Virus record (IMG/VR): IMGVR_UViG_3300044796_000410
Location: 1 to 32,013 of that record
DNA length: 32,013 nucleotides
From: a virus
Reading direction: 5' to 3' (one strand)
A program made the translations under genes and the position numbers. Every line of letters starts with the position of its first letter. The first letter of the stretch is position 1. Below, one piece after another: positions 2,660-29,959 of the stretch. Under the pieces are notes generated by a model. That model was given only the letters and a program-made list of their open reading frames with translations. It did not search any database and was not told the origin of the DNA.

Positions 2660-2763
2660 CCCATAAAATACAACCATCAGACCGGTTATCTGGAAATAGG
2701 AATATCCAACTTAAGCTTTGCTTCAATCAGGTTAAGTTAAGCCCAATGATTGTATTTTATGGG
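2660..2763 (-). repeat. 104-bp element bounded by 18-bp inverted repeats; candidate structured RNA or MITE-like
   Basis: The ends 2660-2677 and 2746-2763 are inverted repeats matching at 17 of 18 positions. The single mismatch (C2674 against A2749) becomes a G-U pair in a minus-strand transcript, so all 18 pairs can form in RNA made from the leftward operon. Inside, the minus strand can form further small helices: AACTTAA with TTAAGTT, and CAGA with TCTG. It lies between the glycine-rich repeat genes and the tRNA. I see no clear target-site duplication, so an RNA domain is at least as likely as a miniature mobile element. Confidence 0.6.
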
Positions 2764-2765
2764 AT

Positions 2766-3107
2766 CTAGCCACCGCCACCGCCACCGACATCGCCATAGC
2801 CATCGCCATCGCCACTGCCATAGCCATAGCCACCGCCATAGCCATCGCCATCGCCACCGCCACCGCCATAGCCACCGCCATCGCCATCGCCATCGCCACC
2901 GCCACCGCCATAGCCATGGCCATAGCCATGGCCATAGCCATCGCCACCGCCATCGCCACCGCCATAGCCATAGCCATCGCCATCGCCATAGCCATAGCCA
3001 TAGCCATAGCCATAGCCACCGCCATCGCCCTCGCCATCGCCATCGCCCTCGCCATAGCCATAGCCATAGCCACCGCCATAGCCATAGCCAAATCTAATAT
3101 CACTCAT
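2766..3107 (-). CDS. Gly-Tyr-Asp repeat protein, copy 2, 113 aa
   Basis: The frame opens MSDIRFGYGYGGG and then consists almost wholly of Gly-Tyr-Gly-Asp dipeptide units, ending in a run of Gly just before the stop. The start codon lies inside the stop region of copy 1 (CATGAGTGA), exactly as copy 1 lies against the gene upstream of it. That repeated stop/start arrangement is why I prefer this frame over the Ala-Met frame and the plus-strand His-Arg frames, which are also open because the hexamer has no stops. Similar GYGDG-rich proteins occur in many phages without known function. Expression is plausible by translational coupling but not shown. Confidence 0.5.
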   Translation of the reverse strand: MSDIRFGYGYGGGYGYGYGEGDGDGEGDGGGYGYGYGYGYGDGDGYGYGGGDGGGDGYGHGYGHGYGGGGGDGDGDGGGYGGGGGDGDGYGGGYGYGSGDGDGYGDVGGGGGG

Positions 3108-3352
3108 GACAGGAGCCATAGCCATCGCCATCGCCCTCGCCATAGCCATAGCCATCGCCATAGCCATCGCCATCGCCATAGCCATCGCCATCGCCATCGT
3201 CATCGCAATAGCCATCGCCATCGCCATAGCCACCGCCATCGCCATCGCCATAGCCACCGCCATCGCCATCGCCATAGCCATCGCCATCGCCATAGCCATC
3301 GCCATAGCCATAGCCATAGCCACCGCCATCGCCATCGCCATCGCCATAGCCA
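2769..3352. repeat. Degenerate hexanucleotide repeat, two arrays
   Basis: About 580 bp are built from GCCATM/GCCACC-type hexamers (plus strand), split by a 26-bp non-repeat spacer near 3088-3113 that recurs after the second array near 3351-3376. The unit length is a multiple of three, so gain or loss of units keeps the coding frame of the glycine-rich genes. Units vary chiefly at one base (GCCATC, GCCATA, GCCACC). Such arrays expand and contract by slippage or recombination, and assembly of this stretch from short reads may be unreliable. Confidence 0.9.
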
Positions 3353-3369
3353 AATCTAATATCACTCAT
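3100..3369 (-). CDS. Gly-Tyr-Asp repeat protein, copy 1, 89 aa
   Basis: The ATG at 3369 overlaps the end of the DUF6948-like gene (TGT CAT GAG TGA contains ATGAGTGA). The protein starts MSDIRFGYGDGDG, continues as GYG/GDG units with rare Glu and Cys substitutions, and ends GSCHE, the same CHE end as the upstream gene because the overlap sequence is reused. The 262-bp offset between copy 1 and copy 2 starts marks a tandem duplication of the start plus array. The sequence is low in complexity and would be flexible and acidic. No function is known; an artefactual frame cannot be excluded. Confidence 0.5.
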   Translation of the reverse strand: MSDIRFGYGDGDGDGGGYGYGYGDGYGDGDGYGDGDGGGYGDGDGGGYGDGDGYCDDDGDGDGYGDGDGYGDGYGYGEGDGDGYGSCHE

Positions 3370-3670
3370 GACAGGTCCAAACAGGAACATCCCTGATTGA
3401 TTTCTTAGCTTTTTCTGTAATTGGAATTATTTCTATTACATTAGATAAAGTTACCTCAGATACCACGCATGGAAATTTACATTTATCAGATTTAGAAGTT
3501 CCATTAGTAGCAAGCTCAGATAAAGATGCAGCCCCTTCCCACCTCCAAATTCTACGAGCATCAGTTAAGGTGGCAACAGTAACTTCATCATTAATTTCTT
3601 TAATATATCCTGCGAACACACCAGCAGAATAGGTCCTAACCATATACATCTGTTCTTTTGAAAAATTCAT
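3362..3670 (-). CDS. DUF6948-like phage protein, 102 aa
   Basis: The pattern MVRTYSAGVFAGYIKE, then LTDARRIWRWEGAASLSELA, then a basic segment and IEIIPITEKAKKSIRDVPVW near the end is the one I associate with the small phage family DUF6948. The family is widespread in tailed phages, usually near early genes, and has no assigned activity. It starts behind a good ribosome site (AGGAGATGAT) and is the first gene of the leftward operon driven from the 3786-3814 promoter. Its 3' end overlaps the start of the glycine-rich repeat gene. The family name is from memory; the coding call is firm. Confidence 0.8.
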   Translation of the reverse strand: MNFSKEQMYMVRTYSAGVFAGYIKEINDEVTVATLTDARRIWRWEGAASLSELATNGTSKSDKCKFPCVVSEVTLSNVIEIIPITEKAKKSIRDVPVWTCHE

Positions 3671-15866: not shown

Positions 15867-18308
15867 CTAATATTTAATATAATAATTGACGTACATGTTG
15901 ACAGGTCTCGTTTCGCTGCCGCCTGTATTCCCGGTTGCTGTATTTGCTACCAATGTATCTGGCCCAAGTGCAAGATTATTTATTGCAGGTGCAACAACAG
16001 CAAATACCTCATGGTAATGTGACAGCAGCTGAGAATATTCAAATGTACCGAGATTCGGGCCTGTTAGACCTGTGACTGTTGACCATCTTGTTAAATTATC
16101 AAAGTCCCAAAGTCCGGTTGGATCGTAATTTCTTAAGAACATACCTTGAGCATCAGGAACGGCATATTGATATTGGTTAATTTTAAATAGGGTGTAATGT
16201 CGAACATCTTCCATATTATAAGAAGATAAAACATTTACATTTATTCCTATTGCTCCAAGTATCAATGGGTCTGACCCTGCTCCATTAAAGGTATACCAAA
16301 CATAGAATGTTCTTACAGCGCCAGGATTAGTTTGGAATGTGAAGTAAGAGCCAGCAGGAGGTATAACAGTAAAATCAATATTGGTGATTTGATATGCATT
16401 CATCACTTCTTGAAGTGTATTAGCAATATCTTCTGCATTATCAGTTGTGTTGACATTCACTTGGATTGGAAGTGCGCCAGGTTGTGCTAAAGGTGGGCCT
16501 GGATCTGTTTCAGTCCCAGTATCAAACCAAATATAATAAGGCAATGTATGATTATTAGCCGTGAAAAAATAAAATGTTTTGCCAGGGCCCCCGGTTATCA
16601 AAGTCGCTCCAGCCAATGTATCGATACTAAAAGCTATGCCTTGTTGTGCATACAGTCCAGTATCATAATTAAATGGCGTAAAAGTGAACCCGGTAGGGAC
16701 ATCCCCGTCAATACAATAGGTAAGGGGATCGTCAGCAAAATCAAAAGTCTTGAAATTAGCTCTGCAAATAAGCTGATTAATGGCAACGCCACTAGAGTAA
16801 GCGTTATAATTTAAACTAACATGGCCAACAGTAGAGCCGTTATAAATAGGAATTCCTGTGAAGGTAAATCCAGTTGCTCTTGCACCTGTACCATCCTGAG
16901 CATATGCAACACCAACACCAGAACTATTAACGGATAATCTAAGAATATCCATATTAGCCAGATTTCCATATGCTGTAGCATAATTGGCGCCAGTTCCGAA
17001 CATAGGGCACTCTGGAATGGTGCTGTTATCTACTAGAAAATCACCCAGCCTAGAAAAAGGAATTCCTAATGTTGAATAATCAGCATAGATATAAGTAGCG
17101 CCATCTAATAACATTCTGTTGCCACGAGGTAATGGGGATGTACTTAAAGGACTAATAATGTTTCCTGCAGTAGCCCCAATATCACCTACTTCCCATTCTG
17201 CATATTCATAACCTATTCTGGTTTGAACCTTAGGCAGTAATAAATCATATCCATTAGGATTAGGTAAGTCAGTCCAGCCATCATTGCCGCGCGTAATCAT
17301 ATCGGCATTAGTTTGCAGCGGGAAAGCTGTGAGAACTTGCTGCCCAAGAACTAATGTAAAGTTAGTGACATCTAATACGAAACCAATATTTGTAGGCAAA
17401 GCGATATCAATGGCCACGAAATCGTTGTTATTAACCGTATCGACCACATCCCCAAAGTTTTGACCAAACTGGAATTGGTATTGATGAATATCTCCGGTGG
17501 GAGTAATCGTATCGGTAAATATAGTTTCTGCAGGAACTACGGTTCCTGTCGTTCCAAAGTATTTAATAATATTGATTGATACAGGAATGTTGACATTGCT
17601 TTCACCCCAGAAGGCAAAAGTATAGAAATTATCATTGGCTGAGAACTTATTAACATCATTCCATTTGATACGAATGCTTTTTATGGTATCTGCGGGATCG
17701 AATGTCACTGCTGTAAATCGAGCTAAATATCTTGGGCTGTTTTCAGGGTCCTCCGTAAATCCTTGGGGGATAAATTGCAGCTTATTAACAGAGCCTAACG
17801 GATTAGAAAGCTCGACTGTAAATCCTCCTTGAGCTATAACATTCGTGCCAGCAACCAATGTATCTGTGGATGATGGTAAATCAGTATGAACTAAGAATTG
17901 ACCATTAGGGACGTAGTTGAAAAGGCCCGAATTGCCAGAAGGAGACCCTGAGCCTGAGATTCCAGGAACAGCTTCGCGCGTAAATTGTGGTCTCCCATCT
18001 GCATCCTGGACTACCACATAGTAGAGTTCAGAATTACCAAAAGCATCATATGGATAGGCATAGATAACAATATCATTACCATTATTATCAACAGGTGTAC
18101 CAACAGAACTGAGGATTATAGGGTTAGGCAACGGAACATAGGTATAAGTTCCCGTAGTACTAGATAATTCATAAACTGTTTTTGGTACAGTTCTGTTTAC
18201 ATCAGAATAGAAATATACTTTACCGCCAGCTAGTGGTGCGCCAGTCGCCTTGTCGACGAAATAACTTTGTAATTGATACAAAGGGATATACTGCGGATTT
18301 AAAGACAT
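15867..18308 (-). CDS. Tail fibre/collar protein, 813 aa, with re-created start
   Basis: Translation most likely begins at the ATG at 18308 (MSLNPQYIPLYQLQSYFVDK), behind GGAG. The N-terminal domain (ATGAPLAGGKVYFYSD, then a TVYELSSTTG...PLPNPIILSSVGTPVD region) is a tail-anchoring module seen in uncultured podoviruses. The C-terminus (GTFEYSQLLSHYHEV ... GNTGGSETRPVNMYVNYYIK) is a tail-collar type end with the H-x-H and GGSETRP-N motifs. A second, diverged copy of the first 13 codons lies at 19065-19026, beyond the endonuclease gene, showing that this start was displaced or replaced when that gene arrived. Confidence 0.88.
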   Translation of the reverse strand: MSLNPQYIPLYQLQSYFVDKATGAPLAGGKVYFYSDVNRTVPKTVYELSSTTGTYTYVPLPNPIILSSVGTPVDNNGNDIVIYAYPYDAFGNSELYYVVVQDADGRPQFTREAVPGISGSGSPSGNSGLFNYVPNGQFLVHTDLPSSTDTLVAGTNVIAQGGFTVELSNPLGSVNKLQFIPQGFTEDPENSPRYLARFTAVTFDPADTIKSIRIKWNDVNKFSANDNFYTFAFWGESNVNIPVSINIIKYFGTTGTVVPAETIFTDTITPTGDIHQYQFQFGQNFGDVVDTVNNNDFVAIDIALPTNIGFVLDVTNFTLVLGQQVLTAFPLQTNADMITRGNDGWTDLPNPNGYDLLLPKVQTRIGYEYAEWEVGDIGATAGNIISPLSTSPLPRGNRMLLDGATYIYADYSTLGIPFSRLGDFLVDNSTIPECPMFGTGANYATAYGNLANMDILRLSVNSSGVGVAYAQDGTGARATGFTFTGIPIYNGSTVGHVSLNYNAYSSGVAINQLICRANFKTFDFADDPLTYCIDGDVPTGFTFTPFNYDTGLYAQQGIAFSIDTLAGATLITGGPGKTFYFFTANNHTLPYYIWFDTGTETDPGPPLAQPGALPIQVNVNTTDNAEDIANTLQEVMNAYQITNIDFTVIPPAGSYFTFQTNPGAVRTFYVWYTFNGAGSDPLILGAIGINVNVLSSYNMEDVRHYTLFKINQYQYAVPDAQGMFLRNYDPTGLWDFDNLTRWSTVTGLTGPNLGTFEYSQLLSHYHEVFAVVAPAINNLALGPDTLVANTATGNTGGSETRPVNMYVNYYIKY

Positions 18309-18345
18309 ACTAAATCTCCTCGACTTATAGACATATTCCATGTAT

Positions 18346-18363
18346 CCTTGTCTATACAAGGAG
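18346..18363 (+). promoter_or_regulatory. Hairpin covering the endonuclease ribosome site
   Basis: CCTTGT (18346-18351) pairs with ACAAGG (18356-18361) around a CTAT loop. The 3' arm contains most of AAGGAG (18358-18363), the ribosome site of the endonuclease gene. Transcripts that include the 5' arm would be poorly translated. RNA hairpins that mask ribosome sites are known for homing endonuclease genes of T4. Confidence 0.55.
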
Positions 18364-18371
18364 AAAATATA

Positions 18372-19022
18372 TTGGATAAAGCAATAGTTAAGATATGCAA
18401 AGTTTGTGGTCCTCTTATTGATGAACAGGCAACTCGGGAAAAGAAAAGCTCATATAGAGGATGCAAAAAATGTATATCCGATAAAAATAAGGCAAAAAGA
18501 TTGGCAGATCCTGAACGATTCAAGGAGCTTCGTAGAAAATCTAGAATCTTGGAAAGAGATCCAGATGTGGAGACTATATTCTGCGTAAGATGCAAAATAG
18601 ATAAAAAAGTTTTGGAATTTAATGCATCTATGCTAAACATGCGTTCCCCCTACTGTAGAGAGTGTAGTCGAGCTTCTGTGAAAGCTCATCATGATAAAGA
18701 GGAGAGCAAGAATAAGCATCGAGAATGGTACAATCGTCAATATCGCGATAAAGCGCGTCATTTAAATTATCAAAAGCATTATGGAATTTCTCTTGATGAT
18801 TACAATGAGATGCTTTTGAAACAAAATGGCGTTTGCGCAATATGCAAGAAGCACCAAATAAAGTCCGCAAGGAATCATGATAACTATCTTTCTGTAGATC
18901 ATTGCCATTCGACAGGAAAAATCCGCGGTTTGCTTTGTAATAAATGCAATCAAGGGCTTGGTCTTTTTGGTGACTCTGTAGAGTCTCTTTTAATCGCAAT
19001 ACAATATTTGCAATCTTATTAA
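18372..19022 (+). CDS. Endonuclease VII-type HNH homing endonuclease, 216 aa
   Basis: I choose the TTG at 18372, eight bases after AAGGAG; another TTG at 18348 lies inside the hairpin. The C-terminal 80 residues are a recombination endonuclease VII domain: YGISLDDYNEML (137 on), CAIC (155-158), VDHCHSTGKIRGLLCNKCN (175-193) with the catalytic His region and zinc cysteines, then GDSVESLL. The N-terminal half carries extra Cys pairs (CKVCG, CKKC, CVRC, CREC), probable zinc fingers for site recognition. It runs opposite to the virion operon and splits the 5' end of the tail gene. Families of this type are mobile in phages. Confidence 0.88.
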   Translation: MDKAIVKICKVCGPLIDEQATREKKSSYRGCKKCISDKNKAKRLADPERFKELRRKSRILERDPDVETIFCVRCKIDKKVLEFNASMLNMRSPYCRECSRASVKAHHDKEESKNKHREWYNRQYRDKARHLNYQKHYGISLDDYNEMLLKQNGVCAICKKHQIKSARNHDNYLSVDHCHSTGKIRGLLCNKCNQGLGLFGDSVESLLIAIQYLQSY

Positions 19023-19025
19023 ATA

Positions 19026-19065
19026 GTAATTGATATAAAGGAATGTATAGTGGATTAAGTGACAT
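19026..19065 (-). pseudogene. Remnant of the original tail-fibre start
   Basis: The 40 bases encode MSLNPLYIPLYQL, the same as the 813-aa fibre start except Leu6 for Gln. Its ATG overlaps the stop of the upstream ejection gene (TAATG), the packing used throughout this operon, so this is likely the ancestral start. The match to the functional copy at 18308-18269 is 31 of 40 bases, with mostly silent differences, and ends at TATCAATTAC. Beyond that the frame reads antisense into the endonuclease gene and would give an unrelated tail of about 130 residues. Confidence 0.75.
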
Positions 19066-20945
19066 TATTCCGCCCTTTTTCTAATTTCAATGGTTAATGG
19101 TTCATGGCTTACCGCTTCTGCGGAAGTTCCAGGGATAGCGCCAGTCAATAATCTAGATAATTCTTTATTCATCGGATCGTTTTGCAGAATTTTAGAAATT
19201 AGGCTTTCTCTTACTCTAGGAGAAGTTAGGAATTTATTTACACCAGCTCCTACTGCTCCGCCAATAGGTATTGCTGCGGCTGCCCCGGCCGGTCCTCCCA
19301 TTCCAAAGCCTATAGTTCCTAATGTTGTTAATCCTGCCCAAGGTAATAATTTTTGCCCAGTAGGAGGGTTGAACATCATTTCTGAAGCTTTTGGATTCAT
19401 TCCAATAAGGTTGCTAAAATCATCTAGTGATTTTTCAGATCCTTCAGCGCCTTCAAATAATATTTTCTTTTGATCTTTGCCGATATCTCTATAAATTGAA
19501 GATAGTTTTTTAGGATTAATACTTTGGTCAGGCTGAATAGCTTCTGAAAAAATACCAGATCTAAGGACATTCATTTGCTCTTCGTCAAATAATTCAGTGA
19601 TTTTTGAAAGCTGCTGCGGCCTATCTTTAGTTTTAACAAATGTATCGATGAAAGTATCAGATAGTGATAATCGTGGGTCCATAAAGTATTTAAACATATC
19701 TTTATCATGCTTAACTTTTTGTAAGTCCCCATAGTATTTTTGAGCTTCTTCAAACGCTTTTAATACTTCTTTATCTCCAGATACCGAATCAACCATATCC
19801 TTATCTAGCGCGCCCAAAAGTCTCGAATAAATTCTAGAGGCATTATTATCTCCAGAACGTTTAGCTTGATATGCCGAATCACCTAAATAGCTTCTTAAAA
19901 GATTCATATCCTTGAGAGATGACAGACTTTTATCATTACTAAAAAATTCTAAATCCGTAAGAATTTTACTATCTACATTTCTCTCGAGCGCAGGTATAAC
20001 GGATTGTTCATACCACAAATCAAAAGATTCCTTATTAAGGTTATCTTGTGTTGGAATTATTCCTTTTTTAGCTGCCAGGTCATCTACATTTTTATAATTA
20101 TCAGAAGCTATCTTGGTTCTTTGATTTATTTCATCAATAGATGCTTTCTGTAATATAGCTCCAGCTTCATTTTTGCTGTGGATATTACCACCGCTTACTT
20201 CTGTTAATATATCTTTCCCTTGTTTTTGCATAATATCTGCGGTTCTTTTCGTAGTTTCATTAGCGCCAGACATAGGAATGCTTGGTAATACATTCTCTTG
20301 CAATTGCATTAAATATGGATTTTCTAACACTCTGCCAAGGCTTGTTTCAGTTCCTTTTGCAGCTTCATAATTCTCTGCAATTTTAGAAGAGCTTGTTTGT
20401 CCTCTTAGCATATTGCTCGGTTTTGCCGCCTGATAAGCAGCATGCCCACCTGAGAAGGTGGCGTCTAAAAAAGATCCAAGTGCAGCAGAAATAGCTGTGT
20501 TTTTAAGTCTGCTCTCATCTTCTTTCACATATTGGGAAGCACCCGCTGCACCACCTTGAATTCCGCCTCTTTTTGCTCCAGTTGCGAGCGCCTTTAATGG
20601 CTTAGCTAATTTTGTAGCTGCAAATGCTTGGCCACCTACAGGAATAAATGCGGCAGGTAAAGTAGAGCCAATAGATCCCAATAGCTCTCCGGCCAATGCC
20701 CAGTTCGGATTAGCTTCTTGATATGGAGCATACTGTTGTTCCATATTTAAAACCTCTTGCTTCAACTCTGGAGATTCCCCCCCAGTTAATTGCTCAAATC
20801 CTTGTTGAACACCATATAAAGTTCTTCCAACGCCAGTTTCCGTGCCTTTCAAAAAAGATTTAAAAGCAGATGGTTGCTTTATTGGCTGACCTTGAGCGAG
20901 TGCCAATATTTCTTCATCTGTGTACATACTTAAATCTTTATTCAT
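19065..20945 (-). CDS. Ejection/internal virion protein, gp16-position, 626 aa
   Basis: The start MNKDLSMYTDEEILALAQGQ at 20945 overlaps the upstream stop (TAATG), preferred over an in-frame upstream codon at 20969. It is close in length to P22 gp16 (609 aa) and occupies its place, last of three ejection candidates. Two hydrophobic Gly/Ala-rich segments (LGSIGSTLPAAFIPVGGQAF, and TLGTIGFGMGGPAGAAAAIP near the C-terminus) could insert in membranes, as expected of a DNA-ejection protein. The centre is helical and charged. Assignment rests on order and composition, not on a recognised active site. Confidence 0.7.
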   Translation of the reverse strand: MNKDLSMYTDEEILALAQGQPIKQPSAFKSFLKGTETGVGRTLYGVQQGFEQLTGGESPELKQEVLNMEQQYAPYQEANPNWALAGELLGSIGSTLPAAFIPVGGQAFAATKLAKPLKALATGAKRGGIQGGAAGASQYVKEDESRLKNTAISAALGSFLDATFSGGHAAYQAAKPSNMLRGQTSSSKIAENYEAAKGTETSLGRVLENPYLMQLQENVLPSIPMSGANETTKRTADIMQKQGKDILTEVSGGNIHSKNEAGAILQKASIDEINQRTKIASDNYKNVDDLAAKKGIIPTQDNLNKESFDLWYEQSVIPALERNVDSKILTDLEFFSNDKSLSSLKDMNLLRSYLGDSAYQAKRSGDNNASRIYSRLLGALDKDMVDSVSGDKEVLKAFEEAQKYYGDLQKVKHDKDMFKYFMDPRLSLSDTFIDTFVKTKDRPQQLSKITELFDEEQMNVLRSGIFSEAIQPDQSINPKKLSSIYRDIGKDQKKILFEGAEGSEKSLDDFSNLIGMNPKASEMMFNPPTGQKLLPWAGLTTLGTIGFGMGGPAGAAAAIPIGGAVGAGVNKFLTSPRVRESLISKILQNDPMNKELSRLLTGAIPGTSAEAVSHEPLTIEIRKRAE

Positions 20946-23149: not shown

Positions 23150-24795
23150 TGCCTCACCTCCAATGTATTCTCTCTAATCTGCATAATGCCGTTAGTTATC
23201 ACTACACGCGCTTTACTGTAAAACCTAAATTGATGCACTAAATCATTGGCCTCGCCAATCTGGTTAAACATCACGCGATTCTTTCTGTTAGCCAAAGGAT
23301 TCATCTGCACACTTACATAATTAGCCCATGCTTCAGCGCCATCACGCGACACGGTGTAATCAATGCGCGGAACATAATCATCAAGCACCCATTCATTTGT
23401 TAGGGTGGAACCCACGTATCCAATAGGAGTTTCATTGGTTAGAACCGAACCATTTTCAGTTGTTAGTCCGGCTAGAAGTGAACGTTTGAAAAAAATATCT
23501 TCCCCTTGCTCCACAGTGAAAGACAAATTATTTGCCACAAAGCGCGAACTATCGTCCAGCCTTGATGGAGGGCAAATTCTAATCCTTGGTATTTCCTCGA
23601 TTTGGGGAGGAAACGGATTAGGTTGCAGATTGCTCGGTTGTGTATAGTCAAAATAAGTATACTTGTAACTTAACTCGTACAAGTCACCGTCATTTAAGCT
23701 CACGAAATAGTAAGTATCATTGTAATAAGCAATGCGTGAAGCAATATGATGATTCAAATGTTCATCAGTCAGTGTTGAAAATAATTTAGACTCAAAGTCA
23801 TAAACCAGTGTTAAATTATCAGCAGGATTAATGAAAGTGATTTGATAAAATACATGACCTGCTTCTGTATAAAAGAAAGCATAAGATTCTTGTGGGAATT
23901 GCAACTGCTCAAATCTATATTCAATACCATCTGTAGAAATAGTGCTACCATTTGCGCCATTGGCCATCATTATCACTGGACCGGAGCGCTCATTAATACC
24001 TAACCACACAACCATGTCATCCATGGCCGCAATGGTTGATGGGCTTAAACATCCAAAGTCAATACTTGTTGAACCATTACGTTGATAGGGAAAATCAGGA
24101 GCGCCCACATCATTCCAAAGTTCAGTAACATTATTGCCGAACACATAAATAAGTGACCCCTTCCCTGGGGCCCGTAGAACTGCAACCGAATTGTCAGGTT
24201 TGGTTTGTATAGAGCCAGCAACGGCAGCGCCACCTGCGCCCCATAACCAGCTTAAGCCATTATTGGGAGCTGATAAATACCAGGCTGCTGAATCCAAATC
24301 AGGAACAATAAAGTAACCATCATGATAAGTAACATATCCAGGTTTAATTGGGTTTCCGGTATTAGGATTTAAAGGCAATACAGCGGTTTGAAAATCACCT
24401 GTAAGCCAATTATAAATCCATAACGCCTGCCCATCTGCAATAGCAATTTGCGAGGCAATGTTTTCATCTATGAATACATCACCGGAAAAAGTATTTAAAT
24501 CAAATAACTCTTGTACTACAAGATTATTTTGAGGGCCCTGTATTTTATATACGTGATTGCTTACAACCGCAATCATAAATCCGCCACGTGTACTTGCGTA
24601 TATTGCACGCCCTAATCCGCTTTTAGTTAGGATAGTATAAATGCTTTTGTATCCAGCATAAGAGACCAAAAACCCATCAGTCACAATCATGTTAAATGAT
24701 TGTTCATCAGACATCTTTGGGTAGCGCGAGAATTTATTGCCGCCAACAATATTGACAGGTAACTCGGCTTTAGGTCTCTGTGCGGATGGCTGCAT
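23146..24795 (-). CDS. P22 gp10-like packaged DNA stabilisation/tail hub protein, 549 aa
   Basis: P22 gp10 plugs the portal-tail channel after packaging. This protein has the expected opening: a proline-rich start, then LPVNIVGGNKFSRYPKMSDE QSFNMIVTDGFLVSYAGYKSI (two stretches written with a break), followed by beta-propeller-like repeats (STRGGFMIAVVSNHVYKIQG, GSLIYVFGNNVTELW, DDMVVWLGINERSGPVIMMA). It is longer than P22 gp10 (472 aa). It overlaps the next gene by four bases and directly follows the gp4-like gene, as in P22. Confidence 0.85.
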   Translation of the reverse strand: MQPSAQRPKAELPVNIVGGNKFSRYPKMSDEQSFNMIVTDGFLVSYAGYKSIYTILTKSGLGRAIYASTRGGFMIAVVSNHVYKIQGPQNNLVVQELFDLNTFSGDVFIDENIASQIAIADGQALWIYNWLTGDFQTAVLPLNPNTGNPIKPGYVTYHDGYFIVPDLDSAAWYLSAPNNGLSWLWGAGGAAVAGSIQTKPDNSVAVLRAPGKGSLIYVFGNNVTELWNDVGAPDFPYQRNGSTSIDFGCLSPSTIAAMDDMVVWLGINERSGPVIMMANGANGSTISTDGIEYRFEQLQFPQESYAFFYTEAGHVFYQITFINPADNLTLVYDFESKLFSTLTDEHLNHHIASRIAYYNDTYYFVSLNDGDLYELSYKYTYFDYTQPSNLQPNPFPPQIEEIPRIRICPPSRLDDSSRFVANNLSFTVEQGEDIFFKRSLLAGLTTENGSVLTNETPIGYVGSTLTNEWVLDDYVPRIDYTVSRDGAEAWANYVSVQMNPLANRKNRVMFNQIGEANDLVHQFRFYSKARVVITNGIMQIRENTLEVRQ

Positions 24796-25532
24796 TAATA
24801 CCCCCAGCCAACAGGCACATAACCACCACTAGCATTCGCGTATGCATAATTTGGCGCATAGTTGCCAGAGAAGGGATTCTGTATCTTTTGCGTAAAGTCT
24901 GTAGGACTTGTGCCGCGAACTAATTGTTCGTATTGTTTGAATCGTTTATCAATACTTGGTGGAGGAATAACATTGTATTCTTCACATAAATAGGTGGCTG
25001 TACCGTAGCGCAGATATTCTAAATAATAGGGGTCGTAAATCAATGATAAATCTTGATTAGCTACTGTAGAGGCTAGAGAAAATTTACCCCAAAATTCAAA
25101 TACATAGGGTTTATCTGGGGTGAAGTATATATATAAATTCATACCTCCCATTACCCGTTCAGTTTCATACACATAAGGTAGTGATGCAATGCCGTTAGCA
25201 CGAGGTGTTGCCCAATAGTTTTCACGTGATTGACGTGACATGGGGAAGCGCACGGTTTGGTCTGGTGTTGCATCATCAGGAATAACGAAGGTCAGCGTTT
25301 CAAGCTGAACCAGATTAGGAATAAAGTAAGCTTCATTGGCAACGATGCCAGTAAAGTTTTGTTTAGTAAAATAGGGGATCATACCCAAATTAGCAGTATT
25401 CATTGCTAATAGAGCATTTAAACAATACATCCCATCTTCGAATTGAGAGCCTGACACTTCTTGCAAGTCTCGGCTGACAATCCCGGTTAGGAACCAAGCG
25501 CGCGTGACCAACTCACCTGAAGTATATGGCAT
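24795..25532 (-). CDS. P22 gp4-like tail accessory factor, 245 aa
   Basis: The start MPYTSGELVTRAWFLTGIVS and the following SGSQFEDGMYCLNALLAMNT match the head-to-tail adaptor family of P22 gp4, in which A..L.(L/N)(A/S)(L/G)(I/V)(L/S) and (G)L..LN..L..W patterns open the protein. In the middle, PYVFEFWGKFSLASTVANQD and LYLEYLRYGTATYL-type segments fit the family. It is longer than P22 gp4 (166 aa). Gene order after coat and before gp10-like agrees. It would form the ring below the portal. Confidence 0.82.
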   Translation of the reverse strand: MPYTSGELVTRAWFLTGIVSRDLQEVSGSQFEDGMYCLNALLAMNTANLGMIPYFTKQNFTGIVANEAYFIPNLVQLETLTFVIPDDATPDQTVRFPMSRQSRENYWATPRANGIASLPYVYETERVMGGMNLYIYFTPDKPYVFEFWGKFSLASTVANQDLSLIYDPYYLEYLRYGTATYLCEEYNVIPPPSIDKRFKQYEQLVRGTSPTDFTQKIQNPFSGNYAPNYAYANASGGYVPVGWGY

Positions 25533-29213: not shown

Positions 29214-29338
29214 GCAAAGACAAACTACTAGCTTGCTCTCTAAGGGGTGTTAGCTTAATATATATTGAGAAATCTATTAATGTAAAGACCATTCCAAAAA
29301 TAGAAATTGGAATGAAAGCAAGGGCGTTCAATCTATGA
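29210..29338 (+). CDS. Hypothetical protein, 42 aa
   Basis: Both ends use ATGA overlaps, joining the zinc-finger gene and the next gene, which supports it as a real frame despite its size. MSKDKLLACSLRGVSLIYIE continues to IPKIEIGMKARAFNL. Unknown. Confidence 0.45.
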   Translation: MSKDKLLACSLRGVSLIYIEKSINVKTIPKIEIGMKARAFNL

Positions 29339-29643
29339 AACCACAACCATTTAATCTAGAAAATATAATAAATGATATCATCCTAAAAAATGAAGGTCAT
29401 TTTTTAAAATTTGTTACTAAGCCTCTGAGGATTAAGAATTTTAATGATTTTGTTTCTTGCGATAATCCTCCAGGTAAAGATGAGAATGATTTAGAGCTTC
29501 TTGTATTCCATATTGATTTTGATGCGCCCTATGTAACCAATGGTTGTTATAAAGATGGTAAATTTTATGATTTTATGGCCGCTATTGAAAGCAAGAATCC
29601 AATCTTAGGATGGTATAAGCCTGATGAAACCACAACCATTTAA
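29335..29643 (+). CDS. MKPxPFNLE-family protein, 102 aa
   Basis: MKPQPFNLENIINDIILKNE opens with the phage motif MKPxxFNLE. The rest has beta-like segments (LELLVFHIDFDAPYVTNGCY). Its first 27 bases recur, with one change, at 29624-29650, and its own last codons and stop are the out-of-frame reading of that second copy. So the two genes overlap because of a duplicated start. Confidence 0.62.
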   Translation: MKPQPFNLENIINDIILKNEGHFLKFVTKPLRIKNFNDFVSCDNPPGKDENDLELLVFHIDFDAPYVTNGCYKDGKFYDFMAAIESKNPILGWYKPDETTTI

Positions 29644-29959
29644 CCTAGAACTATGGATACATCTTGGTAAGCCTGATTGTGTTTGGACTAAGAGTGGTGC
29701 CAAAGTTAAAGATTTAACATTTTATCCTGATTGCGATAGAAAAACAGGATGCTTAACAGGTAAAATATGGTTAGAAGGATTTACATATTTATACATATGG
29801 AATGATATTGGAAGATTTGTTAGGCATCCAGAATGTAAGAGTATTAATGATATGGATAAAAGAGATAGATATTTAACCAATGAATTTATGTTTGGCCCTA
29901 ATGACCTAATGCTTCACATAGAAGATGAACCTAAAATACCTTGGATTATGAAGAAATGA
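29624..29959 (+). CDS. MKPxPFNLE-family protein, 111 aa
   Basis: MKPQPFNLELWIHLGKPDCV, then WTKSGAKVKDLTFYPDCDRK, resembles the widespread small phage protein that reads MKPFNLEEAKAGKPVCTRDG...V. Beta-rich, unknown function. It shares its start sequence with the gene before it and with MKLKPFKLSEF at 5871. Confidence 0.65.
   Translation: MKPQPFNLELWIHLGKPDCVWTKSGAKVKDLTFYPDCDRKTGCLTGKIWLEGFTYLYIWNDIGRFVRHPECKSINDMDKRDRYLTNEFMFGPNDLMLHIEDEPKIPWIMKK

Follow-up and report, generated by a model that had tools for sequence, protein, structure and literature searches.

Two diverged starts of a phage tail gene on either side of an Endonuclease VII-type gene

Mobile endonuclease genes and duplicated gene ends

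Mobile endonuclease ORFs (mORFs) that carry foreign duplicated gene ends have been described in fungal mitochondria, namely in atp6 of Allomyces macrogynus and in atp6, atp9, cox2 and nad3 of Glomus sp., where identity between the two ends of atp6 is 63.5% in nucleotides and 91% in amino acids (PMC3630166). N-terminal gene duplications accompany introns of Tremella (PMC7315562). In T4, intron homing with one-sided homology was completed by illegitimate repair at microhomologies, according to 1999 work as cited in PMC2988022; hairpins over ribosome-binding sites are reported for segB and mobE (PMC2988022), and phage nuclease genes are located at exchange boundaries (PMC10448857).

The locus described here lies in a stretch of viral DNA of 32,013 nt (IMG/VR record IMGVR_UViG_3300044796_000410), called the window below. 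As in the fungal mORFs, a coding gene holds an endonuclease gene along with a replacement for one of its ends, the native end is left as a stub beyond the endonuclease, and the two copies match in protein, with differences mostly at silent sites. The mark by which the Allomyces and Glomus mORFs are recognized is also seen, as the gene end is present twice, once on each side of the endonuclease, and the tail gene is complete with one of the two. The fungal elements replace the 3' end and encode LAGLIDADG or GIY-YIG enzymes, whereas at the phage locus it is the 5' end that is doubled and the enzyme is of the Endonuclease VII (EndoVII) type, encoded on the opposite strand; moreover, fusion transcripts were seen and donor phylogeny was tested for the fungal elements. 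Judged by this likeness of architecture, the fungal mitochondrial mORFs are a close precedent. The idea of the sequence-only reading, an inserted gene carrying the beginning of its target, thus has precedents: the mORFs carry foreign duplicated ends, and N-terminal versions exist inside introns.

Other described systems share single traits with the locus. The Tremella elements also are mobile endonuclease elements with a host-gene fragment able to replace the native one, but they are described as introns, whereas at the phage locus an intron is neither needed nor seen. The seg and mob genes of T4 and F-CphI of cyanophage S-PM2, a member of the DHHRN family, resemble it in being intron-free nuclease genes of sporadic presence; F-CphI shares in addition the EndoVII motif at the C-terminus, and segB and mobE a possible hairpin over the ribosome-binding site. 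One-sided homing in T4, as far as it is reported in the source cited above, likewise gave one homologous and one microhomology junction, although it was followed in laboratory crosses with an intron and the event presumed here is a natural one. Reported free-standing phage homing endonucleases sit between intact genes or split a gene, and no description of a stub plus a replacement start was found in the phage literature covered (open-licence papers).

Layout of the locus and its relatives

The neighbouring genes (head closure Hc3, ejection protein, major head protein) are of the P22-like podovirus type. Read along the minus strand, the locus begins with an upstream structural gene (19065 to 20945, minus strand) for a putative ejection or virion protein of about 626 aa, whose homologues lie directly 5' of the tail gene in two related contigs (L045 and L050, 29-34% identity). 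Its TAA stop overlaps, as TAATG, the start of a truncated copy of the tail gene, copy b (19026 to 19065, minus strand), which consists of 13 codons, MSLNPLYIPLYQL. After 3 nt follows an EndoVII-type (DHHRN) gene of about 216 aa on the plus strand (18372 to 19022), which is read towards the upstream structural gene and ends with its stop at 19020-19022. A divergent spacer of 63 nt (18309 to 18371) holds the Shine-Dalgarno sequences of both flanking genes; that of the tail gene is GAGGAGA (18315-18321, minus strand), six nt upstream of the tail start, and no sigma-70-type promoter was found in a search before this start. Copy a (18269 to 18308, minus strand), the working start with 13 codons, MSLNPQYIPLYQL, diverged from copy b at silent sites, opens an intact tail gene of 813 aa (15867 to 18308, minus strand) with a P22-tailspike-like head-binding N-terminus and a collar/fibre-like C-terminus. 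A group I intron or an intein was ruled out, because the complete tail gene has a start and a ribosome-binding site of its own, and the endonuclease is encoded on the opposite strand.

Copy a (18308 to 18269) reads ATGTCTTTAAATCCGCAGTATATCCCTTTGTATCAATTAC and copy b (19065 to 19026) reads ATGTCACTTAATCCACTATACATTCCTTTATATCAATTAC. They share 31 of 40 bases and 12 of 13 residues, and their likeness ends at base 40. Since the second-best match to copy a within the whole window is only 24/40, chance likeness of the copies is excluded. Of the nine base differences seven are silent, and the remaining two belong to a single codon (Leu/Gln, position 6); each of these residues is present in relatives (NPQYM in L007 and NPQYV in L045; NPLYI in L005 and L050, and NPLYV in L008). 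By neutral expectation, nine random base changes keep at least 12 of the 13 residues with P = 1.3e-4. The string YIPLYQL is common to both copies and occurs in no other related contig, which suggests that donor and recipient were close kin, as yet unsampled. Composition shows no step at the junction, so that the tail-gene start is not marked as foreign. Thus the two 40-base starts with 9 differences and 12 of 13 shared residues, the TAATG coupling and the opposite-strand EndoVII gene between them, all noticed in the sequence-only reading, were confirmed by alignment and by the PF02945 match.

For comparison, 29 distinct viral contigs with the tail-gene domain were collected, the tail domain and the head-closure protein serving as queries. 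All 29 (33-64% protein identity) lack both an endonuclease and a second start at the tail-gene site. The upstream gene ends -1 to +3 nt from the tail ATG in at least 14 of them, and seven relatives (L043, L045, L046, L053, L056, L057 and L066), including the nearest, have the same TAATG overlap. These empty sites and the conserved overlap indicate that 19065 is the ancestral start and that 18269 to 19025 is inserted DNA, as the sequence-only reading had proposed for the old start and for the endonuclease gene. The inserted unit deduced from the empty sites is 757 bp long, comprises the endonuclease gene, the spacer and the replacement 13 codons, and lies between codons 13 and 14 of the ancestral tail gene; on the right the foreign DNA may extend into the tail gene. 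That the host gene was kept intact is borne out by the complete 813-codon frame from 18308. Relatives with both starts and no endonuclease, or with the two starts flanking unrelated genes, would have spoken against the proposal; both were sought among the relatives and not found. Exactly one gene with the tail N-terminal domain is present in each of 14 related records. A nucleotide-level relative was sought via the tail protein in phages and via genome contigs, and none was near; the peptide patterns NPxYIPLYQ and QLQSYFVDK gave no near relative in viral contigs, and the best match of the head-closure protein was 57%. In one relative (L013/L068) an unrelated ORF of 248 codons (2170-2913 in L013), resembling a phage regulatory (Rha-like) protein, lies between the upstream and tail genes, which indicates that this junction receives other insertions too.

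The first 140 residues of the tail protein were modelled from 13 related sequences (pLDDT 78). The modelled N-terminus matches the head-binding domain of the P22 and Sf6 tailspikes (1lkt: VIA-align Z 11.7, 2.2 A over 93 residues); the fold is alike at 20% identity with the P22 domain, in a comparison that covers the N-terminal domain. The tail gene also gave a weak match to phrog_523, tail collar fiber. Since the alignment to 1lkt begins at model residue 11, the duplicated 13 codons correspond to the N-terminal arm, and the insert sits at the border between arm and domain.

Other repeats were also observed in the window. Two tandem small genes on the plus strand (29335-29643 and 29624-29959) have a common N-terminus, MKPQPFNLE, and then differ, a duplicated start without an endonuclease. 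The stretch from 2732 to 3396 (about 650 bp) is a degenerate repeat of 6-base units with a repeat period of 262 nt and Met-Ala/His-Arg-rich open frames on both strands; it is probably non-coding or misassembled. An intergenic direct repeat of about 30 bases (5617-5646 and 6171-6200, 554 nt apart) is a possible regulatory repeat.

The endonuclease gene

The probable start of the endonuclease gene is the TTG at 18372, with AAGGAG at 18358-18363 (plus strand), rather than the in-frame upstream TTG at 18348. The product matches PF02945 (E 3e-22) and the PHROG endonuclease VII, and it aligns with Hpy99I and T4 EndoVII with the active-site D-H-x-H, R and N all present. Its sequence, CAIC...DHCH...R...CNKCN, has the EndoVII-motif residues of the DHHRN (F-CphI type) homing endonucleases. 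CxxC pairs lie in the N-terminal part and the catalytic motif is C-terminal (residues 141-222 of 224). A C-terminal motif characterizes the endonuclease clade that includes the homing enzyme F-CphI, and an N-terminal motif the resolvase clade (PMC6083498); the C-terminal motif with an N-terminal extension found here is thus the arrangement of the F-CphI/endonuclease clade and not that of the resolvases. PF02945 genes are sporadic, being present in 3 of 52 related records, each at other sites. A core phage resolvase of the T4 gp49 type was rejected, because the gene is absent from the other 49 records, several of which are fragments, and because the motif is C-terminal. A hairpin (CCUUGU/ACAAGG, 18345-18362, plus strand) covers most of the endonuclease Shine-Dalgarno sequence (z from -1.5 to -2.2), in the manner of those over segB and mobE; this is weak evidence.

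Duplicated starts or ends at the endonuclease were not found at any of about 40 other EndoVII loci, the start- and stop-anchored scans of all loci taking in 23 viral EndoVII loci, several of them identical, and 16 phage EndoVII loci. The EndoVII search of 398 bacterial genomes gave nothing over the cut-off. In L090 (1489-2052) and L041 (7265-7816) a different EndoVII gene adjoins a homologue of the 245-aa gene at 24795-25532 of the window and marks a second insertion site in the phage family; the gene of L090 is on the same strand, between two intact genes.

Two overlapping minus-strand ORFs, 19065-18628 (145 aa) and 18640-18299 (113 aa), span the insert, reaching from copy b to shortly beyond the tail ATG. 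In synonymous codon shuffles of the endonuclease the 145-codon ORF from copy b appeared in 0.1-0.5% and both ORFs in at most 0.03%; the ORFs were found post hoc, and antisense ORFs of 115-135 codons occur elsewhere in the window. Ribosomes could travel along them from copy b as far as the tail start, which would protect the operon from polarity, or the ORFs may be due to chance.

Origin of the second start

The stub, the insert, the intact tail gene, the empty sites of the relatives, the intact active-site residues and the almost purely silent divergence are established; cleavage at the codon-13 site, a donor origin, one-sided repair and protection from self-cleavage are what we infer. A related phage is the most likely source of the second start, as judged from the sequences, because the dead stub has not been under selection since the insertion and the two spellings therefore most probably diverged while serving as functional starts in two phages. 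The explanation we favour, which we hold to be probable though far from assured, is that the tailspike gene of a P22-like phage received a free-standing homing-endonuclease gene of the DHHRN family beside codon 13, via donor-copying break repair. The recipient tail gene would have been opened, by the enzyme or by another break, at the boundary of the N-terminal arm and the head-binding domain. Repair would have been anchored on the right by tail-gene homology and would have copied leftwards from a related phage with the endonuclease before an intact tail gene. The copied tract would have comprised, as a minimum, the endonuclease gene, the ribosome-binding site of the tail gene and the opening 13 tail codons of the donor. 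The end of the tract would then have been joined to the cut end of the recipient gene with the help of a short homology or of none. The original 13 codons of the recipient would be left as a dead stub still overlapping the upstream gene, and the donor's 13 codons would now begin the working tail gene, hybrid or wholly donor. If the start belongs to the recognition site, the enzyme would cut the working start poorly because of the silent differences. One-sided repair, with homology on the right and a left join at codon 13, would give the observed order without further assumptions, and by analogy with T4 one-sided double-strand-break repair would be a sufficient mechanism.

The start of the tailspike gene is a usual place for host-range exchange. 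It is conceivable, though on balance unlikely, that a mosaic exchange took place near the tailspike start and that the endonuclease gene between the upstream and tail genes of the donor module was a passenger, the enzyme being uninvolved. Such an exchange would leave the same scar, and it agrees with a tail gene that has a conserved P22-type head-binding N-domain while downstream tail genes vary strongly among relatives. However, the breakpoint is located 40 bases inside the gene and precisely 3 nt past the endonuclease stop, and the left side is without sign of homology, as expected for break repair and not for crossing over in shared sequence. The sequence-only reading had gone further and proposed a standing homing strategy with the start as cargo. 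In this form the 757-bp unit would itself be mobile and would give each invaded tailspike gene, itself essential, a cleavage-resistant 5' end of 13 silently recoded codons without intron, intein or loss of function, the minus-strand ORFs perhaps sustaining translation of the operon. We find this doubtful, because a single one-sided repair leaves the same scar and, with no second case among the other EndoVII loci scanned, the model rests on one locus.

Simple duplication of the first 40 bases at insertion, with silent changes accumulating afterwards in the working copy by drift or by selection against self-cleavage or looping-out between direct repeats, would make a donor unnecessary and would account for the otherwise unseen YIPLYQL in both copies. 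But the dead stub should then also have gained amino-acid changes, the pattern has P = 1.3e-4 if changes are random, and the one residue that differs is naturally polymorphic in the family. The almost purely silent divergence thus argues against this explanation, in line with the sequence-only reading; we give it a small chance, and a plain duplication in which only the working copy changed afterwards is a less likely possibility. An ancestor with two tail genes sharing the N-terminal anchor, the first of which was cut to 13 codons when the endonuclease arrived, would account for the silent divergence, and tandem genes with common N-termini do occur (MANVKWSDDA/MANVKWSDNS in L052; MKPQPFNLE at 29335 and 29624 in the window). 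Against this, the 14 related records have one gene with the domain each and the 29 contigs have no second one at the site, which makes such paralogues slightly more improbable still. Finally, the record is a single uncultured-virus contig, and an assembly chimera of two phages might be suspected; this is extremely improbable, as only 10 exact bases are common at the junction, too few to mislead an assembler, and the gene order on either side matches one phage family.

Compared with the systems described so far, the arrangement is, by analogy, a phage equivalent of a device known mostly from the mitochondria of fungi. Should the second start be foreign, the locus would be a natural phage record of a nuclease gene lodged in an essential structural gene that still works. 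It would show how nuclease genes of this sort join segments of related phages at the receptor-binding protein, and it would add phages, and the 5' ends of genes, to the range of the fungal mitochondrial mechanism.
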